Below, in pieces: positions 6,915-62,741 of a DNA stretch of 64,000 nt. The notes below the pieces were generated by a model. The model searched no databases. It saw nothing but the letters and a program-made list of their open reading frames with translations, and was not told the DNA's origin. Position 1 is the stretch's first letter. The number at the start of each line of letters is the position of its first letter. Origin of the DNA: Gracilariopsis chorda (lineage: Eukaryota > Rhodophyta > Florideophyceae > Gracilariales > Gracilariaceae); assembly GCA_003194525.1 (NCBI GenBank), contig NBIV01000294.1, positions 27,765-91,764 on the forward strand, given 5' to 3'. The position numbers and the translations under genes are program-made.

Positions 6915-9900
6915 ATGAAGTCAAGGTGTACGTTTTATATGGGGACAGATGCGACCCTATCCAACGCTCTTCATGCAAGACAGATTGTAATTAAAGATGT
7001 GTGGTCGTCTGTGTTCAACGGAGACGGTGAAACTCTAATGGACAACAGCATTGACTCTATTCCATCTTCCGAACAGCATCATGAGACAAACGGTTCTTTG
7101 AAAGACAGAACCCAAGGGCACTTGAAAGGTCTCGAAGATTGGGAGTACGCTTCACCTTTTCAATCTTTGAAAATTCATGTTGACAGTATCAATGAATCAC
7201 TTGGCAATCGTTTCCATTCAAAAGCAAATCAAATATTAGAACGCATCACACGAGAAGTTGAGAAGGGAATAGGTGTACGAAACTTAATAACTCAGACAAA
7301 CTTATTAAGACTAAGTGTATTGGACGTGTTTCTTCCAGAACATGTTATGATGAAAGTTGTTTCAAATTTAAATCGTGTTCTGAAACAAAGAAGAAAGAAA
7401 GTAGACACCTTTGGAGTTCAAAGGAGTTGTGATACTCTATGTATTGTCAGCATCCTACTCCTCGTCAGTAAGCCCCATAACGGCGAAGAGAAACAAAGAT
7501 TTCTTCTTTCAAATGGACATTACCGGTGGACGCTATGCAGAGATATGGGGCGCATTGTCTTGTACTGTGGGTCGGAGACAGCGGGTGGAAAATATTTGGA
7601 GACGGATGGAGTAACTTTCCGCAACGGGTCAACGCAATGATTACTGAACTGGAAGATGAACTGGCTGCAGTCAATAGACTTTTTCTGTTCGTACCTGGTG
7701 TGAAAATATTTAGTTTAGACGATTACCACCAAAGACTATGATCCAGAGCGGTTGAACAATTGAACATGATGTCTCACGTGAATAATCCGCAAAAGGCTTT
7801 ACGTCCGGTCAACAACGCGATGTGCTCCGCTCTGAATCCAGTGTTTTTAGCCAGTCACTATTCGAGACCTGGTGAGAAAATCATTGACGTTTGGGAACGT
7901 TTGGTTAGGCTCATACAAGGAGTGCCGACAGCAGGGCCCATGCGACCAATGACTGATGCTGTGTTTGCTTCCAATAGAGGTTATAATGGAAAGAGCACTG
8001 TTGATTATATTACCAATCGTATTGGAGCGACTGTAATTGGCACTTGCAAGCGTAGTCTGGATTACCCTTTTGTTTTTGGTCATGGTGCAATTCGAAAACA
8101 GCACAAAGGCGTGTGTTGAGCGAATCAAGTTGCTGCGCAGTCTATAGCGCCAACAAAAAGACTAAGACCATAACAGGACGGACAGTTGAGGCCATTGTTT
8201 ATCGCGAAAGTGTGAGTGGCCGCATTGCTGCTGTGTACCATAGCAACGATCGTTTGTTCTCTGCAGAACATTTTACTCTCATTCCGAAAGCTGGCTACGA
8301 AGGAGTAAGGACGAAAGTCGGTAGGGAGCTTTTTCATTTGATTTATGACAGCTCTGTGACTGAAAATGATACACACAGCACCAACAGTGGATGTCTTGGC
8401 ACGAACTCAATTGCTAGGTTGAAGGTCATGCAAGCGTTATCAGGCACTGTAGAAGTCAAGCTCTTCAGAAGATCCAGGTTGGTTCTTAAGTCGTGCTTTT
8501 CAGTACACTTCTCGCACGACACAGGCGTTTCTCCGTGCTTTGGCAGAGAACCATGAAGACTACGTTGAAGCGCTTTCGTTTCTCATAAGTGGGGAACAGA
8601 TTGATCATAGGCCGCTAACGTTTCCACAGGATGAAAATGGCACAAAGCAGAGTTTAATGTATAAATTAATTCTAATAAGCCACTCTCTGAATATGAAGCA
8701 GAACTCGAACCCCACGTCAGATCAACGAGAACATGCTGTGTCTTCTTTAATGGCCACAACTGCCACTAGTCTTCAAACGAAGACAAAAAATGAGATCCTT
8801 TCCCTTCTTAGTGCTGTAGGTCACCAACAGCCCCACTCTCTCCTCAAGAGACAGCTTCTTGAGAAAGCTTTAGAATTAAAAACGTCTGTGGAGAACAACA
8901 CTGTAGAGTTGTCTATACCGGCAACGCAAGAACTCACGGAGTCGCAAAGGATGGATACAAATAAATGAGCTTTTACACGCCCTGTACAACGCCTCCCTAG
9001 CGTCGTGGGTGATGAAGCCACTTGTAAGCACAGTTGGGATGAAAGAGGGCAATATGAATGAGTCTCAGGTTTTGAAGGCTTTTCCGTCATTCTTTGAGAA
9101 AAATGATGTCATTGAGGGTACTGAGTTCGATAGGCGGAATGTCTCGTATACCAAGCACAGTTTCAAAGTCGAATATATTCGCACCACTGGTCTGTTATCT
9201 TCTAAGAGGGATACGATGATGTCAGACATTCCGGATGGTATTTTACGTTTTGCTACTCATGAAGGAGAAAAGCAGGTATGTGCTGTAGAAATCAAAACCA
9301 TGACTTCTCTAAACACAATTGATGCCGCTCGCCAAAGACGACACAACTATGCTCCACTAACTTATTTGAAGAATATCGGACTGAACGAAACTTCTGTTAA
9401 GCAATTTCATGAGCTTGTCCCGTCGAGTGGATACCGGAAAAAATGTTTGCACCATTCCGTTTGGTTGAATCTGAGTCATGTTGTTTTCGTACAGGCCAAG
9501 GGGAGTAATTGTGGTGTTGAAGAAGTAATATATGTCACATTTTTGCACTTTCATTCGCGTTTAGTGAATAACTACAGCTACCTCTTGTCTGCAGTTCGTG
9601 TAGGAGCATTTCGATGGGTTGGAAAAGATTCTTCGAACATACCAAAAGTATATGACACTTTGTTGCAAACGTCGTATGCCTCTGATCTTCACTCTTACGC
9701 TTCCTATTACGGACTGAGCCGCGCTTATCGTTCACTTTCTTTAAGTCATGGAACCCTTCCTCCCACGCGAATGATACGTCCAACGGTATTCGTGTATTGG
9801 AATTACCTCAAAGGGGGCGTTGACGAGTTTAGCAGGGCGATGACTAACTTGTGTTACACGAACGCGGGTGAAAATCCTATTGTGAGCATCATTGGGCGCC

Positions 9901-10353
9901 TGTTATGCGCTCAAGTTCATAATGCAGCTGTGGTTCATCGATTGTCTCTTGCGCGTAAGAAGGGACATCTCCCAAAGAGTTATGACGAAACCGGTGACAA
10001 AGGCTACAGGCAACTCCGAAAGAACGTTTCCAAATGCTCTTCATTTGCAGATTATGCGCGGCAGCTGGCTTAGGAGTACGTTAAAGTAGCAGAAGCAAGC
10101 ACAAGAACGGCAACGTCAGTGAGTACTAACGGAAATGCCTATGTCCCGATGTTGAACCCTGTGGCTTTTGTCGAAGAACCAATGTATCGTCGTGACATTG
10201 CCGAGAAACACAAACGTGATGAAGACATAAAACGAAGGCTTGTAAATGTGTCTCTACATTACAAAGTCAAAGGGAAAGACACCTACTGCGCACTTTGCTC
10301 CTACAGTCACACAATCAAAAAGAATGGGAAAAAGTACAGAAAGACAGGAGGAG
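6915..10353 (+). pseudogene. piggyBac-like DDE transposase with embedded YqaJ-like nuclease domain (5' part)
   Basis: A plus-strand coding remnant in several frames (6915-7640, 7526-8119, 8113-8490, 8480-8968, 8970-10353). Piggybac-type marks in order: FSLDDYHQRL (first Asp, codon about 7718), MTDAVFASNRGY (second Asp, about 7955; 79 codons later, matching the D268-D346 spacing of piggyBac), and WNYLKGGVDEF (third Asp, about 9822). Between the second and third Asp lie roughly 620 codons instead of about 100. Part of this is a YqaJ-type exonuclease fold: an NE motif (about 9057-9062), IPDG (Asp about 9234) and VEIK (Glu-x-Lys about 9288-9296). Stops inside kept frames are TGA at 7739 and TAG at 10071; frameshifts lie near 7400-7600, 8110, 8480 and 8965. 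The C-terminal finger is cut by the retrotransposon at 10354. Confidence 0.78.
10349..10353. repeat. 5-bp target site duplication (left copy)
   Basis: AGGAG directly before the left LTR; identical AGGAG follows the right LTR at 17097-17101. Confidence 0.95.
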
Positions 10354-11412
10354 TGTGGGCGCCATCACGAGACGGTGACGCAGGGGGCCAAAAAGTTGTA
10401 ATAATAAAAGCCAAAAGGGTGCTCTTCGTAGCTAAAAGCCCCAAAACAAGTTGAAAACAGTGGGATCAAAAGAACTAAACCCACTCGATGAAATAAAACA
10501 ACACTAGGGAGAGCAAGAGGCTCAATCCCTAAATAAAACTTCTTAACTTCTTTGTTGAAACGGCGCGCAACCCAAGAATTATGTCAAGGATCACTAAGGG
10601 TCAGACCCTCGGCTTCCGGTCAGACACTCCGGATGTGAAGTGGATTCTGCAGCCTACCTACCTCTGCACTAACCAGAAGCAGGCGCATACAATCCTTACA
10701 GGGCTTCCCGAGGAGAGCTACTAACAGCGGGATATGCTTTCACTCTATACCCAAGCTGGCCCTTTGCAGGAAAGGTTGCACGGCACGTCGCCTGCGGATA
10801 GCTTCCCGTCAAGTACTTCCGTCCGGAAATCACCAGGTCTTTCGACCGACACCGTTATCCGAGCAAAGCTCCGGTGGGGCTCACAGACGACAGACACACC
10901 TTTGGTACACACTACCCGTCTCCCGTCCACGCCTAAGGCGCTTCAACCGGTCTTAGCGACGGTACTTCCCCACCCTATTGGACAACTAGCGGCATACGCC
11001 TCACTAGAAGCCCTTTATCCAGTGGCGAACGCCTCACTGGTTGTTGATGATAGTTGAAGTGGCTGAAGGTTGATAGGGGGTGGGGCTTAGATGTTGGTTG
11101 ATTGTTGAGGTGAGTTCAGACCGAAGTCCGAAGCTCAGAACCTCTTTTTATAGTGTTTAGAGGCACTAAAAACGAGCCAAATACGCATTTCTACTTGCTA
11201 GTTACTCATGTGTGCGTCTAGGTTACTCCATTGGCTTCTAGAGACCTCTGGAGCTGCACACTAACCAATAATAAAGCGACAATTCGCGCCAGCATCACTA
11301 AAATACTGTAGTCTTTGCTGGGCCAACAAAGCGTGCTGCTAGACACTACTGGAACATTCTACACGTGTGTTCCAGCAATGTCTGGCACATTCTGCAACAT
11401 TCGCGACCGACA
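10354..11412 (-). repeat. 3' LTR (1059 bp)
   Basis: Starts TGTGGGCGCC and ends GCGACCGACA on the plus strand, the same ends as the copy at 16030-17096. It contains a minus-strand TATA box (CTATAAAAAG, 11144-11153). The purine-rich GAGGTTGGGGTAG next to its inner edge (11413-11425, minus strand) is a possible polypurine tract. The pol stop lies 45 bp inside that edge. Confidence 0.97.
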
Positions 11413-11456
11413 CTACCCCAACCTCAAGGGTTGCCACGCCGCGGCAACCTGAAAAC

Positions 11457-14400
11457 CTAACCTTCGATCGGGCGCGCAATATACTTCCTCAAACGACGGG
11501 CGTGTATTCCATGGCGAGTGTACCGGTTGTGTGGAGAAACCAACGTGTACTTTGGATGGTGAGCCCTCACCACACGACATGGGCCAAAGTACTTAGAGGA
11601 AAAAGCAGGCCATTTCACGGTAGTGTTCAAGGCCTTTCCACGAGCCACAAGGACCAGATCACCGACTTCAAACTTCGTAATGGAGACTGCATCGACTTCC
11701 TTCAAAGGCCTCAGAGCAGAACGTTTAGCTCTATGATTCCTTGATGCGAGCAGCTCCACTGAGCGGAACCGGTCGGAGGAGTCCCCAACTCGTGCCACGA
11801 CACCACCTTCATCGGAGGTCGTACGTGGTTTCACGCCGTAAAGCAACTCGAACGGAGAGATCCCACTGGCAAGATGTGTGCGCCGGTATCCGTACAGAAC
11901 TGAAGGCAGGTGTTCGTCCCAACTTGAACGATTATCCAGAGCTTTCTTTCCTATTGCTCTTTTCAGAGTACCAACCATCCTTTCAGCTCGGCCATTGGAC
12001 ATGGGGGCGTACGCCAAGACCGTTTTCCATTTGATACCATGGTCCTCCATGAATGAGACGAGCGACTTAGAAGTGAAGCATGTAGCATTGTCCGACACCA
12101 CGATACGAGGGAAACCAAACACGGCAATGATATCTTTTCTCACGAAGTCTATGACCTCCTGTGACGTAGACCATTTTGTCGGTACGGCAAGTGGCCAACC
12201 AGTCAAATGCTCAACACAAACCAGAATGAAACGGTTTCCGGATTCGGTAGTCGGAAGAGGACCTGCAAAATCAATCGAGAAGACGTCAAAGAGAGAGGAA
12301 ATGGGAGTCCGTAGGTTGCTGTAATACCTTGGTAGTGGTGCGAGTCTCTGGCATTCGTCACAACTCTTGACGTAGTTGCCGATATCTTCATGCATAGTGG
12401 GCCACCAGTATCTCTCAGTGATGAACTTACTTGTAGTCTTCAAATCCCAGTGTCCAATCTCATCATGAAATGACTTGATAATGATCTGTCGCCGACCAAT
12501 AACACGAACAACTCGCAGTGCGTTTGGCATCCTTCTGAACAATTTTCCTTCCCAGACCAGGAATTTCTTCGCATTTCGTCGGATTGCTTGGCGGAGACGT
12601 GCATCAGTCTCATCTGTAGGCAGACCACACAAGAAGCGCGCAATGTTTGCGTAGTATGGTTCAAGACCGGAGAAGTCGTCAGGCTCAACAGCCATACAAG
12701 CAAGGTCGCCTTCATCTTCTAACGGCTCGACCTCGTCTCCGTGAACTATCCTTGACAGATAATCTGCTGCGCCATTCTCCTTGCCTGCGCGATACACTAT
12801 TTCAAAGTCATACTCGGCCAGAAAGTCTAGCCAGCGAGCTAAGCGTCCATGTATATCGCGCTTCTGAAATGCATATCGTAAAGCCATATGGTCCGTGATT
12901 ACCTTGAATGGAACAGACGAGAGTAGATACAATCTGAACTTCTTGAGAGCAAAGATAACTGCCAATGCTTCTCTTTCACATGCCGAGTAGTTCTTTTCCG
13001 CAGCGGTCATAGTACGACTGGCAAACTGCAGAGGATGTATCTTCCCATCTTCCTTTTTCTGAGAGAGAACTGCGCCGAGTGAAACACTAGAGGCGTCCGT
13101 TTCCACAATGAAAGGCTGCTCGAAGTTTGGAAATGAAAGTACCGGAGGCTCAGTCATCTTTTTCTTCAGACCGTGGAAAGCTTCTAGCATCTCTGCGGTC
13201 CAACTCAGCTTCTTATTCCCCGAGGTAGCACTGTGAAGCACGGCGGAGGTCTCAGCAAAGTTTCTGATGAACCTTCGATAGTATCCGGCTAGTCCCAGAA
13301 AAGATCGTAGTTCCATAGTGGTGGCAGGAATTGGGGCATCCTGGATCTTAGCAATGTTCTCCTGGTCCACGTGCACTCCATCTCCGTTGATGAAATGGCC
13401 TAGCAGAGACACCTCCGATAGTGCAAAGAAACATTTGGACAGTTTGAGCTTCAATCCATGCTTCGCAATCCGACCAATCACAGCCTTCAAGTGAATCACG
13501 TGCTCTCTGAGGCTTCTTGAGAATATGACAACGTCATCAATGTAAAACCGAACGAATGGAAGTCCTCTTAGCACATGATCCATCATCCGTTGAAAGGTGG
13601 AAGGGGCATTCATGAGGCCAAATGGCATGACTTCGAACATGAAAGTTCCGTATCTGCACACAAAGGTCTTCATCTCTTTGCAATGCTCAGACATCTTGAC
13701 TTGCCAGTATCGAGAGAACAGGTCGAGCGTAGTGAAGACACAGCAACCTTCAAGTTCGTCAAAGATCTCTTCCATGCGTGGCAAAGGCCAGCGGTCAGCT
13801 TTCATGACTCTGTTCAGCTCTCTGTAATCGACACAAAACCTTGCGCTTCCATCTTTCTTCGAGGCAATGACAATTGGAAACGACCAAGCAGAGGCTGAAG
13901 GGGTAATGATACCAGCTTCGAGAAGAAGATCAATCTCCTTGCGTACGAACTCGTTGTGCTTCGGCGACATCCTCCTGGCTCTGAAGTAGATTGGTTTGTC
14001 AACTGTCAACTCGAAGAGGTGAGAAACAGGCACATCGGCTGGGCGTAAGTCTTTCAATGACCAAGCGATTACATTCGAGTCCTTCAGACAAGAAACCAAG
14101 TCGTCTCTTTCATCCTCTGAAATGTGCGAGAGTTTTGAAAAGAGTAACTTCTCGTGCTGCTCATCGGTAGTGATGTCCAATTGCGGGATCATTTCGGGAG
14201 TCTCGCCATGGTTCTTTTCTGTTAGAGCAACCACGAGTTGTTCGTCATTTTCAGAAGCAGTATCAGAGTCAATAGCGGCGTCAGAATCTGAAGTGAAGTC
14301 GTCGCTATCCGTCTGGAAACCCTCTTCGTCTGAAATCTCGACGCGAGCAAAGTCAAAGCCAAGTGTTACTCTTTTTCCATCAATATTCATCTTCACGTGC

Positions 14401-15296
14401 TGATTTCCGAGGTCAAGGCAGGCTTGTAACGATTCAAGTGTTGGACAACACACAATGACGTCGAATGGCGGACCATCAATAACAAGAAAGTCTAATGGAA
14501 CGGAGACGCCCCTGAAGGATATAGGGATATCGTATAGTATTCCTCTGCACACGGCGCTCTGTCCATTGGCAACAGTTATATTCTTCGTCGTATGCTTGGG
14601 TTCCAGTGCTAGCCTGTCACACAGCTTGGTTGACATAAGGTTTGGAACAGCTCCAGAGTCGAGCAAAGCTTCAGTCTCAGTCCCATATATCATAACGGGG
14701 ACCGCCTTAAGACGTCTAGGCTGCTTACCGACTGGCCCAACAAAAGGGCGTCGAACATTGCTTTTGCGACCGATGAGCTTACGAATCTCTTTCTTCGCAT
14801 CATCTGCGTCTCCTCTGATAATTTGTTCAAAGGTTAGTCCGGAAGAGGCATTCGCGAGCTCAGTGAGAACGTTATATTTGCTTGCATGGTCTTGAAGACT
14901 CTGTTTCTTCGATTTCCTCTGTTTAGGCTTCTTGACTTTCTGTTCATGAACCTTAGGTCTCCGAACTCTCTCTTCATATCTTGTTGGATTGAGCAAAAGC
15001 GGGATGGGTGCACCACCGTCTGAACGGCGCTGTTTGGGCAACGCTTCATCGTCAGCACTTCTCTTGGTTGTGGCGACTACATCAGCATTCCCGGCGTTTT
15101 CGGTGACAATTGATACGGGGTCGGATCCTTTCTGAAGATTAGATGCTGACTCTTTAGATTCCTCATTGGCATCCCATACTTTGCGGGTCTCTTCGGGTCG
15201 GATTCTTCGCCAACAAGTATATCTCTGAGTGTCCAATTTTCCCACAACGCGGGCATCGCGTATCTCGGTGCGGATTAGAGTCACATTGTGAGGCAT
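11457..15296 (-). CDS. pol: Pol polyprotein: protease, RT, RNase H, integrase
   Basis: A 1279-residue intact frame, +1 relative to gag, with a 134-nt overlap that implies programmed frameshifting or another bypass. The first ATG may not be the real N-terminus. Domains in order: a basic linker (1-200); retropepsin with LLDSGAVPNLMS (about 210-222); RT with ARFCVDYREL, MPFGLMNAPSTF and catalytic YIDD (about 490-610); RNase H with VETDASSVSLGAV and DYLSRI (about 750-870); integrase with an HHCC finger (FHDEIGHWD ... CDECQRL), core SIDFAGPLP and VVSDNATCF, and the Glu in SNGRAERMVG; and a C-terminal SH3-like region with FEVGDLVLVARG. All catalytic acids are visible. No chromodomain was seen. It would reverse-transcribe and integrate the element in the nucleus. 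Confidence 0.96.
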   Translation of the reverse strand: MPHNVTLIRTEIRDARVVGKLDTQRYTCWRRIRPEETRKVWDANEESKESASNLQKGSDPVSIVTENAGNADVVATTKRSADDEALPKQRRSDGGAPIPLLLNPTRYEERVRRPKVHEQKVKKPKQRKSKKQSLQDHASKYNVLTELANASSGLTFEQIIRGDADDAKKEIRKLIGRKSNVRRPFVGPVGKQPRRLKAVPVMIYGTETEALLDSGAVPNLMSTKLCDRLALEPKHTTKNITVANGQSAVCRGILYDIPISFRGVSVPLDFLVIDGPPFDVIVCCPTLESLQACLDLGNQHVKMNIDGKRVTLGFDFARVEISDEEGFQTDSDDFTSDSDAAIDSDTASENDEQLVVALTEKNHGETPEMIPQLDITTDEQHEKLLFSKLSHISEDERDDLVSCLKDSNVIAWSLKDLRPADVPVSHLFELTVDKPIYFRARRMSPKHNEFVRKEIDLLLEAGIITPSASAWSFPIVIASKKDGSARFCVDYRELNRVMKADRWPLPRMEEIFDELEGCCVFTTLDLFSRYWQVKMSEHCKEMKTFVCRYGTFMFEVMPFGLMNAPSTFQRMMDHVLRGLPFVRFYIDDVVIFSRSLREHVIHLKAVIGRIAKHGLKLKLSKCFFALSEVSLLGHFINGDGVHVDQENIAKIQDAPIPATTMELRSFLGLAGYYRRFIRNFAETSAVLHSATSGNKKLSWTAEMLEAFHGLKKKMTEPPVLSFPNFEQPFIVETDASSVSLGAVLSQKKEDGKIHPLQFASRTMTAAEKNYSACEREALAVIFALKKFRLYLLSSVPFKVITDHMALRYAFQKRDIHGRLARWLDFLAEYDFEIVYRAGKENGAADYLSRIVHGDEVEPLEDEGDLACMAVEPDDFSGLEPYYANIARFLCGLPTDETDARLRQAIRRNAKKFLVWEGKLFRRMPNALRVVRVIGRRQIIIKSFHDEIGHWDLKTTSKFITERYWWPTMHEDIGNYVKSCDECQRLAPLPRYYSNLRTPISSLFDVFSIDFAGPLPTTESGNRFILVCVEHLTGWPLAVPTKWSTSQEVIDFVRKDIIAVFGFPRIVVSDNATCFTSKSLVSFMEDHGIKWKTVLAYAPMSNGRAERMVGTLKRAIGKKALDNRSSWDEHLPSVLYGYRRTHLASGISPFELLYGVKPRTTSDEGGVVARVGDSSDRFRSVELLASRNHRAKRSALRPLKEVDAVSITKFEVGDLVLVARGKALNTTVKWPAFSSKYFGPCRVVRAHHPKYTLVSPHNRYTRHGIHARRLRKYIARPIEG

Positions 15297-16044
15297 AATG
15301 TCCGGGCTTCTTGCAGTATGAACAAACCTTTTCGTAGTCTCGACGCTCCGTCTGTGTCTTCTTAACCATTAATGACAGCTGAGCAAACTGCTCAGAGAGT
15401 TTGTCGACCTTAGACTCCAAAGCATGAGAGATAGTTTCTTCAGAAGACCTGTGGTTTTGGACAATACGCTTAGGTGGGGTACTTAATGAAACGTAGTTCC
15501 CCATTGCTTTCCGGGCAGCATCGAAGGCTTTCACTTGAACCTTCAACTCATCATAATCATCAGCGCCACGGAAAACAACGAACTGGGCTAGATCAGCGTA
15601 TTCCATTACAGCTTTCTTCAAAAGACCAAACTTAGCCTTAGCGTTGAATCCTGCCTTTAAGAAGAGGTTGTCCATATAGGTCAAGGAACCAACCAAGTCT
15701 GCATAATCCAATTTAGCAGAAATTGCAAGGCGTATATCTTCCTCAGGCTCCTCGGCTTTTCCAGAACGATCGATGAAAGCTTGCTTAACGGAGCGGTAGT
15801 CCTTTGCTTCTTCCGAAAGTGAACCATTAACAGCATAAGAATCATAGTAGAACTCAAAGGCTTTGTTGTCAAGGAAACCAAGCAATTCAAGTGCCATGTC
15901 CTCGTCAGTCTTTCCTCTCATTGCAACATTCTCAAAGTAAAAGAAGAACTTTACGACGTCAATAGAAGAACCGTCATAAGAAGTAAATGCAGCGTTAGAG
16001 TCAGAAGAGCTCCCTCCTCGAGAGTACCATGTGGGCGCCATCAC
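15163..16044 (-). CDS. gag: Gag polyprotein, two CCHC zinc knuckles
   Basis: A 293-residue open frame. It starts MMAPTW within the last 15 bases of the 5' LTR and reads straight through the primer binding site. Residues of about 25-200 form a helix-rich region typical of retrotransposon capsids (for example the KFFFYFENVAMRGKTDEDMA stretch). Two zinc knuckles follow near the C-terminus, CSYCKKPGHYASQC and CPRCGKIGHSE. The second lacks the final Cys at the usual place, because that sequence continues in the pol frame. Gag binds and packages element RNA. The stop TGA is at 15163 and pol overlaps it by 134 nt in the +1 frame. A later ATG is possible, but none fits the conserved region better. 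Confidence 0.93.
   Translation of the reverse strand: MMAPTWYSRGGSSSDSNAAFTSYDGSSIDVVKFFFYFENVAMRGKTDEDMALELLGFLDNKAFEFYYDSYAVNGSLSEEAKDYRSVKQAFIDRSGKAEEPEEDIRLAISAKLDYADLVGSLTYMDNLFLKAGFNAKAKFGLLKKAVMEYADLAQFVVFRGADDYDELKVQVKAFDAARKAMGNYVSLSTPPKRIVQNHRSSEETISHALESKVDKLSEQFAQLSLMVKKTQTERRDYEKVCSYCKKPGHYASQCDSNPHRDTRCPRCGKIGHSEIYLLAKNPTRRDPQSMGCQ
16012..16029 (-). other. Primer binding site of the intact element
   Basis: Directly abutting the 5' LTR, the element sense strand begins TGGTACTCTCGAGGAGGG, i.e. complementary to a tRNA-type 3' end in ...ACCA, with no spacer. It lies inside the gag reading frame. Confidence 0.6.
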
Positions 16045-17096
16045 GAGACGGTGACGCAGGGGGCCAAAAAGTTGTAATAATAAAAGCCAAAAGGGTGCTC
16101 TTCGTAGCTAAAAGCCCCAAAACAAGTTGAAAACAGTGGGATCAAAAGAACTAAACCCACTCGATGAAATAAAACAACACTAGGGAGAGCAAGAGGCTCA
16201 ATCCCTAAATAAAACTTCTTAACTTCTTTGTTGAAACGGCGCGCAACCCAAGAATTATGTCAAGGATCACTAAGGGTCAGACCCTCGGCTTCCAGTCAGA
16301 CACTCCGGATGTGAAGTGGATTCTGCAGCCTACCTACCTCTGCACTAACCAGAAGCAGGCGCATACAATCCTTACAGGGCTTCCCGAGGAGAGCTACTAA
16401 CAGCGGGATATGCTTTCACTCTATACCCAAGCTGGCCCTTTGCAGGAAAGGTTGCACGGCACGTCGCCTGCGGATAGCTTCCCGTCAAGTACCTCCGTCC
16501 GGAAATCACCAGGTCTTTCGACCGACACCGTTATCCGAGCAAAGCTCCGGTGGGGCTCACAGACGACAGAAACACCTTTGGTACACACTACCCGTCTCCT
16601 TTCCACGCCTAAGGCGCTACAACCGGTCTTAGCGACGGTACTTCCCCACCCTATTGGACAACTAGCGGCATACGCCTCACTAGAAGCCCTTTATCCAGTG
16701 GCGAACGCCTCACTGGTTGTTGATGATAGTTGAAGTGGCTGAAGGTTGATAGGGGGTGGGGCTTAGATATTGGTTGATTGTTGAGGTGAGTTCAGACCGA
16801 AGTCCGAAGCTCAGAACCTCTTTTTATAGTGTTTAGAGGCACTAAAAACGAGCCAAATACGCATTTCTACTTGCTAGTTACTCATGTGTGCGTCTGTGCG
16901 TCTAGGTTACTCCATTGGCTTCTAGAGACTTCTGGAGCTGCACACTAACCAATAATAAAGCGACAATTCGCGCCAGCATCACTAAAATACTGTAGTCTTT
17001 GCTGGGCCAACAAAGCGTGCTGCTAGACACTACTGGAACATTCTACACGTGTGTTCCAGCAATATCTGGCACATTCCGCAACATTCGCGACCGACA
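16030..17096 (-). repeat. 5' LTR (1067 bp)
   Basis: Near-identical to 10354-11412 apart from about ten substitutions and an 8-bp tandem duplication near 16885-16900. In element sense this is the promoter-bearing LTR. Confidence 0.97.
16820..16829 (-). promoter_or_regulatory. TATA box in the 5' LTR
   Basis: The minus strand reads CTATAAAAAG, conserved exactly in the other LTR at 11144-11153. It faces gag and is the likely core promoter element of the retrotransposon; a start site some 30 bases downstream would be expected, which is inference. Confidence 0.65.
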
Positions 17097-17101
17097 AGGA
17101 G
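17097..17101. repeat. 5-bp target site duplication (right copy)
   Basis: AGGAG directly after the right LTR, matching 10349-10353. Five bases is the usual duplication length for Ty3/gypsy integrases. Confidence 0.95.
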
Positions 17102-17226
17102 CGCGACAGAAACAGTGGTGTTGCATATGTAGGCAGGCAATATGTTCACAATGCTGGGATACATGGCACACGGATGAAATACTCAAGAGAGCACTGATTC
17201 TAGATGACGAAATTGAGAAACTATAG
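17097..17226 (+). pseudogene. C-terminal zinc-finger end of the piggyBac-like transposase
   Basis: Immediately right of the inserted retrotransposon, the plus strand encodes WCCICRQAICSQCWDTWH and a short acidic tail ending at a TAG at 17224-17226. Joined across the AGGAG target duplication, the frame is continuous with the CALCSYSH segment ending at 10353, giving the Cys/His-rich cross-braced finger that closes piggyBac-family transposases. This fixes the true 3' end of the host transposase gene and shows that the retrotransposon landed inside its last domain. Confidence 0.85.
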
Positions 17227-20200
17227 AGCAAGGCAAACGAGTAGCGGTCAGATGATGATGTGAACATAATGATTATATGATATGCTCGCCGTCGTATTCC
17301 AGAACAAGAAACGAACGATGCATGACTTACCAATCTTTACTACTTTGGCGTTGTGCAGTGCACTCTGTCTAGTTTCGACAACATGCTGTCGAGTACTTCA
17401 TTCTCTGGCGAAAGAAAAACAAAAACCGTATCGTACACCTTTCTCAACTTCGGCTGTAGTTATTACGCGAGTACCCAAAAGCGTTGATGCCGTAAGAAAA
17501 CATGGAGACAACTTTTGTCTTCTAAAAGCAGTATTTTCCGTACGTCAATCGTTTCATAGAAAAGTTTTCCGTTCACTTATGTCACTGTTTGTTCCTGTTT
17601 ATCATCCTCTTGGCCTAAACCCCTTAAAGCAGACGGTTGGTATGGGACCGCGTGTTTCTGATACACCTTTGAATTTTCTTATGTCGGGCATTTTACCCAC
17701 TTTTAATCCTTGTTTCTGTTGATGAGAACGAAAAGTGCGTGTTCATCATCCGTAGTATGCTTCCTGGTCGCGAGACATCTTCTGTAAACCATGTGCCGAG
17801 AAAACGGCGTCCCTTGAACTCCAGTGGGCTTAGAGTTGCCTCCACAAACTCTGCTGAAGACGGGCTGGAGATCTTAGATTGCGCGGAGTCAGAGATGGGT
17901 CGCACTGGGTGAGTTGGGGTCCCGCTAGGTGAGTGGTGCGTCCCACTGGGTGAGATCTTGGGTTTTTTCACCCTGAGCGCGAGTGAGATTCACCGACCAG
18001 CGGGACTTCTCACCCTGGCAGTGTGAAGTGGGCCCTCCTCACCCCAATTTCACCCCAAAAAAGGGTGATGAAATTCATCACCCTACGAGAACGGGGCTTA
18101 ATGACAGTACTGCTGCACCGTGACGGCCCTCTACATAAGCGCAAAGAGTGCGCTACATCACCCCCCTCTCAGATTGCAGCGATCTCTTGCACCATCTCAA
18201 GTGATCACCCGAGCACAAGCTTAAGCAAACTCACGCGCTTCTTCAACTTGCAAGATCTTCGCGCTTCCCTTAAGGCAACGCTTTCTCAACTCCGGAAACC
18301 GGAAAGCTGAGCGCATCGTACAGTCATTGCAAATCGTCGTGACCAAAACCGCACGCAGGAATCTTTCCAAACACTCTACGATAGAGCTCTGCAACGCGTG
18401 CGCTGGGCGTCAGATAAGACAATGTTGTTCCCCATAGTCCCTAACGGACTGAACAAGACAGCCACCTGGCTAAAGAAGGTCATCAAACCACTACAGATTC
18501 TTGAATCTTACGGCGTGAAAGAGGTCACGAAAAATCCTTCGTCATGGTTGAGATTTATTGTACCCGCCATCTGGGGCGTCTTCTCATCGAGGGGTGTGAA
18601 CGCCGCGTATACTTTGATCTCGAAACCTCGGACGAGCTCGCCCACAAAGTCGACATTGACTTCTTTCGCCGACCTGCAGCCAAGACTTATGTAGCGTACA
18701 CGCTGGGCGAAAACGTCATGTCATTCTGGACATCTTGTGGTTAAAAACTCACCAGGGTAGACAGGAGAGAGTCTCCTTTACGCACTTGTGCGAACTGGAA
18801 TAAAGAACTCCCCGGACGGTGGCCCTCGAAGAGGTTCATGCTGGAATGAATGCCGAGAAAATCTAGCGCGTACTACGCGCTCTCTGCACGTCGCTCTCTG
18901 CACGTTGAAAGTGATTAAATCGTCCATAGATCTCGACGAGAACAAGCTACGGGCCCTTGACCCATGCAAGCGCAATGATCAAGGAGAATTCGTTGCAATG
19001 GGACTCCCTCCTCAAAAAGCATGGCGTGAGCAGATCACGGTGTACAAAACGCTCTCCTGGCGCCAATTCAAGCACACGCGCCGACAAAAATACCTGCTTC
19101 TGGTATGTTACCACCAGGTCGAGATCAATTGCTTCTTCCACGATGTCGTCCCCCACATATGGCCCATCGGGGTCTTACGTCTGCAATTATCCGGGGTATG
19201 AAACCGTGCTCCGATCGAAGTGTGCTTACTCAGAGCCTTCCCACCTCACAAACGAAGCCCGAGTGGGCCGTCAATGGTAGATTCCACCAGTTGTCCGCGC
19301 GCAAATCGGTTCATAAGGCTAACGGTGACTCATTTTGAGGCTGCTTCAAGGTGGGACACCGACGCTTAGAAGCTGAAGACTCTGTTGAATGCCATTGACC
19401 AGACCGAGTGGTCTCCTTTTCTTCGAGACGAGGTGTACCTTGATTGTCCAGTGACTCCCGTATTCAAGATGTGCGGCGCTTTACGCTTTGCGCACAAGGA
19501 GAGATGCACGCCTGTGGATTTAGGTTGCGAGCGGGTAGTGTTCAATGCTGTCTGATGGGCATTGGAAATATCTGAAAGGGGTATATGGTTGGAATTGGCA
19601 AGGGATGGAATCCTCTCATCGAAGATCTGCGCCCTTATTACATCAGGACGGTGTTCACAGAACGGACCGCCATTAAATCGTCGGCTCCGACGAATGCTCT
19701 TTATCTGGATGCCTAGAGGCGCCAACAGTTAGCAAAGCTAACAACGGGAGTAAACGATGTCCCTATAAGGGACGCTCTCCCGGCAAAAATGTGCAAGCTC
19801 TACTCGGTGCCCGCATCCTTTTCCAGCCATCGGCTTCAGCGCACTTCTAAATGACTTAAAGGAAACTTGGATTGACGAGCGTTGCTCAACGGCAAGCCGG
19901 GATAGGCTGTTAGTCTTCCGCATTGCCGATTTCCACGCCTGAACAAGGGGCGTTTGCTTCAGGAGAACCCTCTGCTTCTTCAAATGACGAGACTAGCTCT
20001 GGTGGGCCGAGCTCTGCCCCTTGTAACGATTTCATCGATAGTGATGAGAACATCAGCGCTTAGTCGTAAGAGCGATGCTCTTTTAGCAAATTAGTTTTGC
20101 ATTCAAACCCTTTTCCTGCCATTAGACTAGCAGAAGTATGCGCGATGCACACTTTAGATCCAGAAACAGACAAATTTCCTTACACCTTTGTCCAAATCTT

Positions 20201-53170: not shown

Positions 53171-56100
53171 ATGACGAGAGGAGGGCGACGTCTGAACTCT
53201 GGTGGCATCCGATCTAACTCGGGAGGTGCTAGAGACAATTCTGGAGGTGCCAGGTTGAACGCAGGCGGTTCAAGGCAAAACGCTGGTGGTCGTCGCGTCG
53301 GCAGTGGTGGAGCACGGGCAGGAGCTGGAAGACCCCGAAGAGAACCAGCTCCTCCATCTCCAGATGAGTTGGGAGTAAATGAGAGCGGAGCACACGTTCA
53401 AGGACCTATTGTTCCAGTGGTTGAAGAAGACGAAATTACTCCTGCACCTACTTCGGTTGCAGCAGCAGTTAGCACAAGCGCCGCTGGAGCCAGTGGGTCC
53501 GCTGCCACAGATCTACCAACATCGTGCCCAATTCCTGGATTTCTGGAGTTTGTGAGAGGCCTTCCAAGTCACATTCCACCGCCTCCGATGCCTCCCCCTC
53601 TCCCACCGATGCCTGCAGAACAGATGCCGGTTGCAATGGAATTGGAAGAGGATGAGATCATCCCTTCTCCCTCACAGCCACCGCCATCACAGCAGCCTGC
53701 TCTGCCACAAGCTGAACAAGAGGAAGAACAGATGCCAGTCCCGATGGAAGTGGAAGAGGATGAGATCACCCCGGCTCCCTCACACCCGCCGCCGCAGCCT
53801 GCGTTGCCACAAGCGGAACAGGAAGAACAACAGATGTCCATTCCGATGGAAGTGGAAGCGGATGAGATCACACCGGCTCCCTCACACCAGCCGCAGCATC
53901 AGCCACAGCAACAGCTTGATACGACGGTCATGCACTGTGCTGGGCGTCCTGATCGAGGACTCTATCGCGTGTACTATGCGTGGGATTCCGTGGCAGCTCA
54001 GGCGAGGAATGATCCGGCCATCCGTGCAAGCGTGCCGGAGTTTGAGACGCTTCCCACTGCAGGTCAAAGGCGATGCGGAAGATGCGGCGAGCACGCACAC
54101 ACGCTCTCCTCCTGCCCGTACCGGGACTGGACATTGAGAATTCATAGCTGCAAGTACTGCGGATGCGTTTTGCTTGGCAAAGAGACCAATGGAGTGTGCT
54201 GTGGAATGAAAAGAATGTCAGGGTGGGGCGTCACGTTCCGCAGAAGGCATAACAACGAGTTGGTTCGCAGTCTTTATAGTCTGAGAGCCTTTCACAGCCA
54301 TTTTCTCAACTTGAATACGCTCTTCGCTACGACGCAAGCGTTCATGGACATGTCGTATGTGACGGGAGGCGGTCCCTCCTTTCTGAGACTTGAGGGAAAC
54401 GCAGCTCTCGCTCTGCCCACGCAGAACCAGAACAACACGCGCTACAGCTTTCTGTGGGGTACTGGTCCCCCTAACTTGGATCCCTCTCACTATGCGCGTG
54501 CCAATTTGCGTGCGTTCATTCAAGATATCAACGTACGAGACATCGTGCCCAAGTTGTACGATGTGATCCAGCCCAAGCCAGACGTGGTGCGTGAGCGGTA
54601 CCGATCCATGCTTAGCACGCAACAACAACAACAAAATGCAGATACCGCCGTCGATATCAGCATGCAGGCAGCAGAAGAGGGAGTAGTCGTACGTGGTTAC
54701 GAAGGAACCCGAAGTGCTACAGTCAGTGCTCCTCACGTAGGTGCTGGGCCTCTCCCTGAAGATGCTCCTGGTGGGGGGCCAACCATGATGAGAACGCTCG
54801 TCGTGGATCCGACTGGCCTGTACCGAGTGGAGTCTCAAGTACCGCGCTTGGTAGAAGGAACCGTAACAGAAGAGCACGCCGTAGTGACGGCTGCTGGTGC
54901 TGCTAATGCTGGAGATGGGGCGACTGCGAATGCCGCAAACAATGCGCAAGTGCGGTACCGCCTTCTAAAACCGGCATCCAAAATGGCAGAGAAAGGCACT
55001 TTTCCTCTTCTCTACCCGTACGGAGATCAGCACGAACCGTTTGACATTGGCGTGTTTCTGGAGGCAAAGAACTCAACACAGCAAATCTCAGGTCTCAGCG
55101 TCAACGAGTGGAAGCTCCGAAAGCTCACCTGGGCTGAGAACGCGAAGAGACGACTGTACTCAGACAACATCCTTCTGGACAGTGGACCGTTGATGCAGAT
55201 GTGGATGCTTCGCACCCACACAAACATTGAGGACATGCGACTGCGTTTCCTCGAAAGAGAACAACGGGCACGCATTGTACAAGAGCAAGAAATGCAGCAA
55301 GCACAACAGCAAACCGGTCACGTGCCACAATCCCAGTTCGTGCTAATGGGACGCATCTTTATGCCCGATGACTCCGTCAACTCAGCAGCATACTGGAAGA
55401 ACAAGCGCATGGATGTACAGGCGATCGTGGCGCGGAGAGGACCGCCTTCTCTGTTCATTACAATCACCATGAACATCTGGCGAGAGGACATCCAGCGTCT
55501 TGGGATGGACACCACCAATCGTGGCGCATTTACGGCACAAAGTAACCGCCCTCGACCGTTTGACCGACCGGATCTGATTGCAAGGGTGTACAACCAGTAC
55601 GCAAACGACTTCATGAAGGACTTGGAGAAGAACTCGGAGCAGATCTTTGGACTGAAGTGCCTGGGGCTTGCATCAAAGCTCGAGTTTCAAGAGCGCAATG
55701 TGCCTCATCACCACATGCTCGTGTGGCTCGAAGGAGGCGTGATTGAAGACGTTGATGTGATCGACGAGCTCATTCGTGCAGAACTTCCCCTTCCAGGCGA
55801 AGACGACGCGTTGCGTGCTCTCATTCGTTCCATGCACAGGCACCGCCACTCCACCTATTGCCGGAATCGCGCTGGGCGGTGCAAGTTTGGATACGACAGC
55901 AATATGATTGTGCCGGAGACGTACATTGAAGAAGGCACGAATCGCGTGATTTACCGCAGAAGAAGGCAAGAAGACCTCAAGATTGTGCCATACAACCCAA
56001 CACTGACCAAGAAGTACCGCTCTCATATCAACGTAGAACGCACGCAAGGAGGGGGCGCAGTGGCTTATCTGATGAAGTACGCGTTTAAGCAGCCCAAAGC

Positions 56101-58593
56101 TCAGGAGGTGGTGCTCAATGTGAGTGATGCTAACGAGACAGGCACACACAACGAGCAGCAACAAGAGCCACAGGTGCAGAACGACATTCGTGCATACATG
56201 CGAGCGCGTGTGGTGGGCGCCGTCAATGCAGCTTGGAGACTTTTCGAGTTTCGACATGTTCACATCGTACCAAAAGTAGAGCGACTGGCCATTCACTTGG
56301 AAGGAGAGCGCACATTTCTGCTGAGAGGTCCAAACCAGCTCTTTTCTGCATCACAGCCGTCTACACTGGAGAGATACTTTGCAAGGCCCGAAGCATACGC
56401 GAACCTCGACTACCTTTCGTACTTTGAAAAAGTGCGATTGTATCGCACGCTTCCAGCCCGCGTGCTTAACCAATACGACGGAGACAGCACTCAGGTGCCC
56501 ACAGACGACTGCGATCCGCCCATGTACGTGGTAGAGCGCACGGACGACGAGCAGTGTGTCGCAAGGATCAGAGCTGTTTCACCGTCGGCCATTGAGCTCT
56601 TTGCTCTGCGCTTGCTGCTCATGAATCACGGCTCGAGCTCTTATGAAGACGCAAGGACTTTCAACGGACAGCAGTATGGAACGTATCGTGAAACTGCGAT
56701 TGTAAGCGGACTGCTCGCGGACGGATCCGAGTTTGATATTGCATTCCAAGAAGCAGTGCAGATATACAGCACGCCCTCAGAGCTACGACGTCTGGTTGTT
56801 ACACTATACCAACAAGGCGCAGACCCAGAAAAAATGGCCGTCGAAAACTGGGAGGCACTATGTAGCGACATACATACAGGAGATGAGCAGCAACGAAAGC
56901 AAGAAATGTATCGACGTGTGGTGGAAATCTCAGACCGGCACGGAGGACGACTGCTTCGCGATCACAGCTTCTTCTCCCAGCACCTACAGCAGGATCATAC
57001 AGCATTGACTGAGGCGAATCGAGCTACAACAACTCGAGACGCACGAGTGGTGCGAAATTCGTCAACTTTGCAGTCAAGGTACGCCACCTTAAAACCTCGC
57101 CAAAGACAAGTCATTGACACCGTCATTGCTGCATTGCAACAACGACAGGCACTGCAGGAGCGAACAAGCACTCCTGGAAACGTGTTCTTTGTGCAAGGAT
57201 CCGCAGGAACCGGGAAGACATACGTGCTCAACCTCCTTCGTGATATCGTTGAGTCGGAAGGAATGCTCGCCGAAATGACTGCTACAACAGGCATTGCAGC
57301 TTCGTTGTACGAAGGTGGCCGCACTTTACATAGCCTTCTCGGACTGGGTGTAGCTGATAGGGACAGCACAAGCAACACTACAGCCACTTTGTCAAAGTAC
57401 GGTCCCCGATCTCAACGTGCAGAACTGCTACGCGAAATACAACTGCTCGTCTTGGATGAGGCGTCCATGCTCTCACGAAAGCTCTTCGAACTCATGGATG
57501 CGTTGCTCAAAGATCTTCGCTGCAGTGGAATGGAAAACCCGCCTCCGTTTGGGGGCTTGACCATCATTCTATCCGGCGACTACTCCCAGCTGCTTCCAGT
57601 GGTGCCGCAGGTGTACATGGAGGCCGAGCCAAGTGGTAATGTGAGACGAGTGTACACAAACATTCTCAACGAATTGCCGTGGAAGAGTGATCTTTGGATA
57701 TTGTGCTCGGTTCAAGTGCTGTACCTCACGGAACAAGTACGCCAAGCCGATGATCCTGCATTTGCGTCGCTGTTACGTTCCATTGCACGAAACACAATAT
57801 CCAACAACGCTCCGCTATCACTCAGATCTACCGGTGGCATGCAAACCGCCTACCAATTCCTGTGGAAGTGGCTCACAACACGACGCAAGGAGGATGTGGA
57901 TCTCAGCAAAATGCTCATTGCCTCCACAAATCAGTTGGTCGATGAACACAATGCGGCAGCGCTAGATCTGTTTCCTGGTGAACGCTTCACTCTTCCGTCA
58001 GCTACGACGGTACAACCTGACCGTGTACCAAACTCAGAGCCCGACGTCACCAATACCTTTGTTCCCGAGTTTGCGTATCAGTATGCACCTACTGGTGTAC
58101 CTCCTCATAACTTGGATTTGAAGATTGGTGTGCCAGTTATGGTCATTCGGAACGTGTTGCATCCGGCTGTGGTAACGGAAAGCTGTTCGTAGTCGTGCGT
58201 GTAGATCACTTTACGATGCAGGTGGCTCGATTCGACGAGAACGGACAGGTGCTCGAACGACAGCTCCTGCATCGTATCGACTTCGAGTTTTCTTTCGCAG
58301 ACATTCGCATGATTCGAAGGCAGTTCCCTCTTCGTCTTGCGTTTGAAGCTACAGTTCACAAAGGACAGGGAAAAACCTTGGATGGCTTGGTTGGGGATGT
58401 ACGATCCAACTTCTTCTGCGCAGGTCAGTTGTATGTCGCATTGTCGCGCGTTCGAAGGAACGACCATGTGCTGCTCCTGCATGATCCGCTGCTTACACCC
58501 GAAAATGCGCACACAATTCATCCCATGCCTGTTCCCATCGCCAACCCAGTGCTGCCTGAAGCTATTCAGTTCTGCATCCCTCCACAACCGTAA
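53171..58593 (+). pseudogene. Helitron RepHel: HUH replication initiator plus PIF1-type helicase, one frameshift
   Basis: A 1673-codon frame (53171-58192), then the rest in another frame (58195-58593). Residues 1-60 are Gly/Arg/Asn-rich with repeated NSGG units (basic, likely DNA-binding). Proline-rich MEVEEDEITPAPS repeats follow at about 155-245. A Cys/His motif is at about 300-350 (CGRCGEHAHTLSSC, CKYCGCVLL). The Helitron Rep domain has HUH-type H846-H847-H848 in NVPHHHMLVWL and tyrosines Y966 and Y970 in AYLMKYAFK. The helicase has Walker A GSAGTGKT (1343-1350), Walker B LDEAS (D1429/E1430), GDYSQLLPV, and in the second frame VHKGQGKTLDGL and YVALSRVR. A single-base loss near 58165, at a conserved NG-LF stretch, breaks the frame; otherwise full length. 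Rep nicks and rejoins element DNA and the helicase unwinds it. Confidence 0.93.
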
Positions 58594-60554: not shown

Positions 60555-62741
60555 TCTCAACACCCCACTCTTAATGATTTACACATGTATGAGGGGGGTG
60601 TTGTTGATTGATGGGAGGCGGTGCGCCAATAAACCGCTCTGTATGCCCCTCTACGCGCATGCAAAACTGCCATTTGGCGCAACGCCTCCCTACCATTTAA
60701 AACATTCAGCAGCAGCAGCAGCAGCAAAGCTTCCTGCTTACTGGCTCGCACTCCCATAATGACTGCAGTGCCAGCCAGTTACACAAAGCAACGTGTCGTG
60801 CTTCCTCATCATTGGCTGGCACTGCAGTCAATTTAGCGACCTAGGCGCCGCGGCGCCCCGTGGTTCTACGAGCGCTATTGCGAGCGCAAGCGAGCAAAGT
60901 GCTCGGAGAGCCTCCGAACGCCACTAAATACAAAAAGCTACAAAACCAACGCGGCGCGCAGCGCCGCCCACGGCCGAAGGCCGTTTCCACTTGTCTCAAA
61001 CACCCCACTCTTAATGATTTACACATGTATGAGGGGTGTGTTGTTGACTGACGGGAGGCGTTGCGCCACAAATTCGCTTTGCACGCCCCCGTTTGCGCAT
61101 GCAAATCACCCATTTGGCGCAAACGCCTCCCCACCATTAAAAAAGTTCAGCAGCAGCAGCAGCAGCAAAGCTTCCTGCTTACTGGCTGGCACTCCCATAA
61201 TGACTGCAGTGCCACCCAGTTACAAAGAGCAACGTGTCGCGCTTTCTCATCATTGGCTGGCACTGCAGTCAATTTAGACACCTAGGCGCCGCGGCGCCCC
61301 GTGGTTCTACGAGCACTATTGCGAGCGCAAGCGAGCAAAGTGCTCGGAGAGCCTCCGAACGCCACTAAATACAAAAAGCTACAAAACCAACGCGGCGCGC
61401 AGCGCCGCCCACGGCCGAAGGCCGTTTCCACTTGTCTCTCCATCATAAGTATTTGTTCCTCTATGAGGGGGGGTTCTTGATTGAATGGAGGCGTTGCGCC
61501 AATAAACCGCCCTGTATGCCCCTCTACGCGCATGCAAAACTGCCATTTGGCGCAACGCCTCCCTGCCATTTAAAAAATTCAGCAGCAGCAGCAGCAGCAA
61601 AGCTTCCTGCTTACTGGCTCGCACTCCCATAATGACTGCAGTGCCACCCAGTTACACAAAGCAACGTGTCGCGCTTCCTCATCATTGGCTGGCACTGCAG
61701 TCAATTTAGCCACCTAGGCGCCGCGGCGCCCCGTGGTTCTACGAGCGCTATTGCGAGCGCAAGCGAGCAAAGTGCTCCGAGAGCCTCCGAACGCTACTAA
61801 ATACACAAAGCTACAAAACCAACGCGGCGCGCAGCGCCGCCCACGGCCGAAGGCCGTTTTCACTTGTCTCAACACCCCACTCTTAATGATTTACACATGT
61901 ATGAGGGGGTGTTGTTGATTGATGGGAGGCGGTGCGCCAATAAACCGCTCTGTATGCCCTCTACGCGCATGCAAAACTGCCATTTGGCGCAACGCCTCCC
62001 TACCATTTAAAACATTCAGCAGCAGCAGCAGCAGCAAAGCTTCCTGCTTACTGGCTCGCACTCCCATAATGACTGCAGTGCCAGCCAGTTACACAAAGCA
62101 ACGTGTCGTGCTTCCTCATCATTGGCTGGCACTGCAGTCAATTTAGCGACCTAGGCGCCGCGGCGCCCCGTGGTTCTACGAGCGCTATTGCGAGCGCAAG
62201 CGAGCAAAGTGCTCGGAGAGCCTCCGAACGCTACGAAATACACAAAGCTACAAAACCAACGCGGCGCGCAGCGCCGCACACGGCCGAAGCCGTTTCCACT
62301 TGTCTCAAACACCCCACTCTTAATGATTTACACATGTATGAGGGTGTGTTGTTGACTGACGGGAGCGTTGCGCCACAAATTCGCTTTGCACGCCCCCGTT
62401 TGCGCATGCAAAATCACCCATTTGGCGCAACGCCTCCCCACCATTAAAAAAGTTCAGCAGCAGCAGCAGCAGCAAAGCTTCCTGCTTACTGGCTGGCACT
62501 CCCATAATGACTGCAGTGCCACCCAGTTACACAAAGCAACGTGTTGCGCTTTCTCATCATTGGCTGGCACTGCAGTCAATTTAGACACCTAGGCGCCGCG
62601 GCGCCCCGTGGTTCTACGAGCGCTATTGCGAGCGCAAGCGAGCAAAGTGCTCGGAGAGCCTCCGAACGCTACTAAATACAAAAAGCTACACAACCAACGC
62701 GGCGCGCAGCGCCGCCCACTTCTGACGGCCGTTTCCACTTG
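58741..62741 (+). repeat. Head-to-tail array of nine short non-autonomous Helitron units
   Basis: Nine units each begin TCTC: 58741-59179, 59180-59647, 59648-60086, 60087-60554, 60555-60993, 60994-61434, 61435-61866, 61867-62302 and 62303-62741. Seven (432-441 bp) end with the double hairpin and CTTG of the autonomous element. Two (59180-59647 and 60087-60554, 468 bp) instead carry the start of the autonomous 5' leader and stop at CAGTGCCAAA. Within each unit almost all sequence is in inverted arms: GGAGGCG-TGCGCCA with TGGCGCA--GCCTCC; TGACTGCAGTGCCA with its complement; palindromic GGCGCCGCGGCGCC; GAGCA/TGCTC; CGGAG/CTCCG; and the two terminal hairpins. No unit encodes a credible protein. 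Confidence 0.88.

Follow-up and report, generated by a model that had tools for sequence, protein, structure and literature searches.

A YqaJ-type nuclease predicted inside the catalytic core of a divergent piggyBac-like transposase from the red alga Gracilariopsis chorda

A degenerate transposon copy in contig NBIV01000294.1

The stretch of DNA analysed here (the window) comprises 64,000 nucleotides of the Gracilariopsis chorda contig NBIV01000294.1 (assembly GCA_003194525.1, positions 27,765 to 91,764 of the forward strand) and contains a degenerate copy of a DNA transposon that we refer to as family A. Analyses of this copy and its relatives established that the element encodes a protein in one frame for which both a piggyBac-type transposase fold and a YqaJ/lambda-exonuclease fold are predicted, that the catalytic residues of both are conserved, and that the element has been mobile with a 4-bp duplication. 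The nuclease follows a beta-stranded insertion domain and precedes the third catalytic aspartate (D3) of the RNase-H-like core. The features of the window copy are as follows:

6954..10353, plus strand: main part of the degenerate family-A copy, with stops, frame changes and D2 changed to Asn (DNA identity)
6957..7590, plus strand: N-terminal helical part, DDBD equivalent, in frames 2 then 3 (tblastn, P0001 residues 160-373)
7604..8107, plus strand: first part of the RNase-H-like core, around D1 and D2, in frame 1 and interrupted by one in-frame stop (76% identity, P0002 residues 21-188)
7718..7720, plus strand: catalytic Asp 1, D1 (LDDYH, in FSLDDYHQRL; family alignment)
7973..7975, plus strand: position of catalytic Asp 2, D2, Asn in the window (FASNRGY; Asp in 9/9 family-A rows)
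8065..8469, plus strand: frame-3 stretch that follows D2, in the region of the insertion domain (tblastn, P0002 residues 175-308)
8480..8494, plus strand: motif I of the YqaJ domain, whose Trp and Arg correspond to Trp24 and Arg28 of lambda exonuclease (family alignment)
8780..8878, plus strand: SAP-like helical piece nested in the YqaJ domain of family A (aligned position of the PF02037 match in P0008)
8979..9620, ends approximate, plus strand: YqaJ/lambda-exonuclease core (NE...PDG...EIK)
9060..9062, plus strand: Glu of NE, lambda Glu85 equivalent (family alignment)
9234..9236, plus strand: Asp of IPDG, lambda Asp119 equivalent (family alignment)
9288..9296, plus strand: EIK of VEIK, with Glu (9288-9290) and Lys (9294-9296) equivalent to lambda Glu129 and Lys131
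9822..9824, plus strand: catalytic Asp 3, D3 (KGGVD, in KGGVDEF; own-genome copies, family-B GGVD aligned to piggyBac GGVD)
10284..10353, plus strand: beginning of the cysteine-rich finger at the C terminus (YCALCS; alignment to relatives)
10354..17096, no strand given: Ty3/gypsy long terminal repeat retrotransposon within the finger, foreign to the element (5-bp duplication AGGAG)
17097..17467, plus strand: remainder of the element, comprising the finger end (WCCICRQAICSQCWDTWH) and the 3' tail

The window copy was 91.7-92.2% identical in DNA to copies in C306, C283 and C112, from 6954 to 10353 (10185 in C283). It is dead because of in-frame stops (7739-7741 and 10071-10073), several frame changes and the Ty3/gypsy insertion, which has AGGAG on both sides and after which the zinc finger resumes at 17097. 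The end stretch of the retrotransposon (10354-11000) recurred at 30 further places among the matches listed, with 99-100% identity, indicating that it inserted recently into the piggyBac copy; the retrotransposon also has a stop-to-stop frame of 1303 residues on the minus strand (11457-15368). Terminal repeats of the window copy's own subfamily were searched for and not found.

An earlier note, made from the letters of this DNA, had described a YqaJ-like nuclease embedded in a piggyBac-type transposase, with about 620 codons between the second and third catalytic aspartates. The first and third aspartates were located where that note had placed them, the D2-to-D3 distance in the window was 616 codon-equivalents, and a single stop-to-stop frame (8907-10073) held NE, IPDG, VEIK and GGVD together, as it had stated. 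The piggyBac triad it recognised needed correction at the second position only: the aspartate of MTDAVFASN (7955-7957) varies within the family, and the invariant D2 is the aspartate of DRGY, six codons further 3'. Pfam scans of the seven window frames taken separately gave no YqaJ and no transposase match; relatives were needed.

Relatives with both domains in one frame

Searches of the species' own genome (an assembly of 91.3 Mb in 1081 contigs) with the 388-residue open reading frame (ORF) of the window identified at least 107 matched stretches (106 of 128 candidates scored). An unbroken frame of 1351 residues in L042 (C177) contained all three catalytic aspartates and the nuclease motifs, as did frames of 1155 residues in L041, which has lost the finger, and of 985 residues in L040, which begins past the N-terminal part. 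A search of outside databases identified six family-A proteins at E<=0.001, five of them with 919-1391 residues and 38-59% identity and the sixth, P0010, with 20-22% identity. P0009 ends ahead of the nuclease, and P0005 is an ORF marked complete in a EukProt transcriptome. All six, including the cut-off P0009 and the divergent P0010, were kept in A1, and column counts for family A are over nine rows. The D2-D3 distance was measured in seven family-A proteins: P0010 had 538 residues, the other six 618-626. Intact homologues, which the earlier note had named as a check on its proposal, were thus found both within the species and beyond it, one of them an ORF from a transcriptome. The same motif order in these unbroken frames indicated that the pattern in the window was not due to chance, and the interpretation given in the note was supported.

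Thirty own-genome copies (L009-L038), many of which contain stops, were examined at the catalytic positions. Aspartate was present at D1 in 20 of 23 readable copies, at D2 in 21 of 24 and at D3 in 29 of 30. The Arg28 and Glu85 equivalents were retained in 24 of 27 and 26 of 29 readable copies, and those of Asp119, Glu129 (which we take to be catalytic in lambda exonuclease) and Lys131 in 29, 23 and 28 of the 30, respectively.

The distance from the motif I Trp to the Glu85 equivalent was 197 residues in family A versus 67 in a second family, B, and 61 in lambda exonuclease. Among the family-A proteins scanned with Pfam (P0001, P0002 and P0005-P0010), P0008 had a SAP match in this interval (PF02037, E 1.6e-6, residues 697-730), and there was no SAP match in the others or in the window frame. 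Family A is a three-deep nesting, with a SAP-like piece in a nuclease in a transposase core.

Family B accounted for seven of the eight places identified by a YqaJ profile search of the own genome. Its seven copies are 99-100% identical, two of them (C19 and C18) with 1115-residue frames, and its 32 database matches included three named Gracilariopsis chorda and one Chondrus crispus; the G. chorda proteins P0011 and P0012 were left out of the family-B alignments (A2/A3), for which column counts are over 31 rows. Scans of IMG/VR viral contigs with the family-B (A2) patterns matched 22 stretches, none of which was confirmed as a relative. An internally deleted family-B derivative, with identical ends and ATAT flanks, was present at C21:327229-327935 and C202:14190-14896; of the query it retained 532 bases at the left and 180-185 at the right, the two parts overlapping by 5-10 bases where they join.

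Families A and B aligned from end to end over 878 columns, nuclease included, at 19% identity (E 2.4e-47), and their catalytic residues were near-invariant. Based on this alignment, the nuclease insertion probably predates the split between the two families.

Several features support assignment to the piggyBac superfamily. A predicted DDD triad with piggyBac-like D1-D2 spacing (84-85 residues in A and 79 in B versus 78, D268-D346, in piggyBac) is accompanied by GGVD, which in family B aligned to the piggyBac GGVD. Modelling predicted a piggyBac fold, with a helical DDBD split around the core, and strands at 436-477 of the family-B model at the part matching window 8065..8469. CxxC pairs of a C-terminal zinc domain occurred in both families; the cysteine-rich stretch aligned to piggyBac 553-594, a match not significant alone, and zf-Tnp_2 was found in 1/31 family-B rows. 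The Pfam profile DDE_Tnp_1_7 gave a mixed picture: it was matched at E<=0.01 in 2/31 family-B rows (best 7.5e-5) but stayed below its cut-off of 22.4 bits in P0006, P0008, P0003 and P0004 (18.2, 19.5, 13.4 and 14.2 bits). For the nuclease, PF09588 (YqaJ) exceeded its 22-bit cut-off in P0003 (31.3 bits) and P0005 (25.3 bits), and the NE...IPDG...VEIK pattern, attributed to such enzymes in the earlier note, aligned to lambda exonuclease with putative equivalents of Glu85, Asp119, Glu129 and Lys131 and of the Trp24/Arg28 pocket. Sequence searches of the PDB with P0001 alone gave nothing at E<=1, and with profile A1 only weak matches, to BCL11A (best, E 0.012) and MANF/CDNF (E 0.12 and worse). Comparisons of the A and B profiles with four conventional G. 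chorda piggyBacs (nominal E 0.003-0.34, probability <10%) were too weak and were not used.

Mobility and target duplications

L042 has TTAA at both boundaries and inverted repeats of about 77 bp that begin CCCCGTGCT and are 78% identical. Copies of the surrounding repeat in C250 and C289 lack the element and hold a single TTAA. On its left, 97 bases of flank match at 98-99%, counting the TTAA itself; on its right, the match covers the 23 flank bases nearest to it. Matched 4-bp duplications were present in five of the six family-A copies read at both ends, the others being TTAA/TTAA in C42 (two parts 10 kb apart), TTAC/TTAC in C12, TTAG/TTAG in C181 and ATAA/ATAA in C43, with a mismatch (TTAT/GTAT) in C36. 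One end was read in C307, C55 and C403, and two of 12 end pieces fetched had no repeat motif. In family B, ATAT adjoined CCCTAGT at 14/14 ends read, L049 and L050 had the same arrangement at both their ends, and empty sites for the C19 copy, in repeat copies in C7, C30 and C87, hold a single ATAT. Together, the empty sites and duplications indicated that both families moved with 4-bp duplications, which, with the terminal inverted repeats, are features of the piggyBac superfamily. Strict TTAA targeting of the T. ni type was not found, as family A used TTAC, TTAG and ATAA besides TTAA and family B used ATAT, and we therefore class these elements as a divergent piggyBac branch.

Conventional piggyBacs (PF13843; e.g., L084, L091, L092, L097 and L098) are also plentiful in this genome, with at least 119 stretches (116 of 259 candidates scored), none of which coincided, by eye, with the listed A and B copies. 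They belong to the same superfamily by Pfam, and the CTAG that adjoins the terminal repeats in several of their copies shares its central TA with the A and B targets. They differ in having no nuclease insert, frames of up to 736 residues and a D2-D3 spacing of 122 (L084, for which at least 43 stretches were 91-100% identical, 40 of 207 candidates scored). In flank readings, CTAG rather than TTAA was at both ends in three of the six conventional copies read (C154, C203 and C167). C88 had it at one end; C28 had CACT and ATAG, and C52, read at one end, had CAAG. The idea that the nuclease causes relaxed target choice is weakened, as these copies show CTAG without a nuclease.

Elsewhere in the window, a tandem array at 60555-62911 (period 437, 5.4 copies, 90% matches) has related stretches adjoining the family-A copy in C306, and a plus-strand ORF of 1673 residues (53171-58192) contains a 102-base tandem repeat (53617-53894).

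Possible roles of the inserted nuclease

Like piggyBac (PDB 6x67, T. ni) and piggyBat (9c0f), the proteins have a collinear helical domain, DDD core, GGVD helix and C-terminal cysteine-rich domain, and the elements a 4-bp target duplication. Unlike in piggyBac, a nuclease lies inside, targets are not strictly TTAA, and D2 and D3 are 504-626 residues apart (A and B) rather than 101 (D346-D447, PMC7351741). The nuclease resembles lambda exonuclease and RecE-type YqaJ enzymes in predicted fold and catalytic residues but is not a free protein and, in family A, is interrupted by the SAP-like piece between motif I and the Glu85 equivalent. PMC4482050 describes ISL2EU (PHIS superfamily), a DNA transposon with a YqaJ exonuclease-domain protein, of function called unknown, in a second ORF and a transposase with DDE, HTH and THAP domains. 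The elements studied here differ in having YqaJ within the catalytic core of a piggyBac-type transposase in one frame. A literature search of titles and abstract starts, with Repbase and most subscription papers outside its scope, identified no piggyBac-type transposase with an inner YqaJ; a Repbase entry for such a fusion is possible. Each half is already labelled in databases on single G. chorda proteins ('PiggyBac transposable element-d' and 'YqaJ viral recombinase domain-c', names incomplete), and no statement of the fusion was seen.

We consider it probable that this is a cut-and-paste DNA transposon from a divergent branch of piggyBac, with a complete YqaJ PD-(D/E)XK nuclease of the lambda-exonuclease type in its transposase. 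By homology, the DDD site almost certainly excises and joins the element, and is expected to work as in piggyBac, by nicking, by forming and opening hairpins and by joining ends. Conservation of its residues makes it highly probable that the inserted nuclease is active, and this activity would be expected to depend on a 5' phosphate because the equivalents of Trp24 and Arg28, which contact that phosphate in lambda exonuclease (PMC7496540), are kept. With some reserve, and as a close call, we suggest that it acts on the 5'-phosphorylated ends made by excision, in overhang trimming, donor resection or both. The 4-nt 5' overhangs on the element ends might be trimmed, or the donor break might be resected and then repaired from a homologous copy.

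Several points weigh against this interpretation. The catalytic roles of both sites are predictions from sequence and models, and lambda exonuclease works as a toroidal trimer (PMC7496540), which may not fit a transposase dimer. DDE_Tnp_1_7 was below its cut-off or unlisted in 8/8 family-A proteins and absent from the window frames; PF09588 was matched at E<=1 only in P0005 of these eight (P0009 being without that part), the Pfam scan gave no YqaJ match in the window ORF, and the YqaJ profile search of the own genome identified zero family-A copies. Structure prediction, as proposed in the earlier note, gave a family-B model that matched both folds with modest Foldseek template modelling (TM) scores by target length (piggyBac 0.40, lambda exonuclease 0.69) and a weak model for the window ORF, which had a mean predicted local distance difference test score (pLDDT) of 60.5 and no Foldseek match at E<=0.001. 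Ratios of nonsynonymous to synonymous substitution (dN/dS) between close copies had regional medians of 0.63-0.96, indicating that the genome copies mostly decay near-neutrally; in the five between-subfamily pairs listed, dN/dS was saturated in all but one region and of little help. The variable duplications can also be explained without trimming, given the non-TTAA sites of nuclease-free copies and the invariable ATAT of family B.

Of the narrower roles, an active nuclease that serves repair pathway choice only, with donor flanks resected, the element restored by homologous repair and copy number raised, seems unlikely, if the best of the alternatives. The retained 5'-phosphate pocket fits it, and the deleted family-B derivative, at two places and with a junction overlap, is what abortive gap repair can give; however, ordinary DNA transposons often produce internally deleted derivatives too. 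Trimming alone, of the 4-nt overhang after hairpin opening, would allow insertion at targets unlike the old donor site, as the varied family-A duplications might suggest, but family B always has ATAT, conventional copies show CTAG without a nuclease, and the piggyBac overhang is reportedly dispensable for TTAA selection (PMC7351741), making this distinctly less likely. We give slightly less weight again to a catalytically idle module for DNA binding or dimerisation: the piggyBac insertion domain lines the target-DNA channel (PMC7351741) and family A has its SAP-like piece, yet the catalytic residues hardly vary between two families that share only about 19% identity. Two separate genes, or relics side by side by chance, might be suspected from the broken frames of the window copy but are refuted by the unbroken frames from both sources and by a nuclease at the same place in two families.

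Returning to the end-processing transposase, we propose, more tentatively than its action on transposition ends, that a single polypeptide combines DDD excision with a built-in lambda-type exonuclease on fresh 5' ends, controlling both movement and break repair. Repair of the donor-site break is usually left to the host. If a conserved built-in 5'-end nuclease is real, the link between excision and repair choice would become testable in one protein. The fusion also provides a case from nature in which a DDE core has taken in a large enzyme, and, as the laboratory value of piggyBac lies in precise excision, the treatment of ends in a divergent branch is of direct interest. One protein of a red alga may thus both move DNA and trim broken ends.
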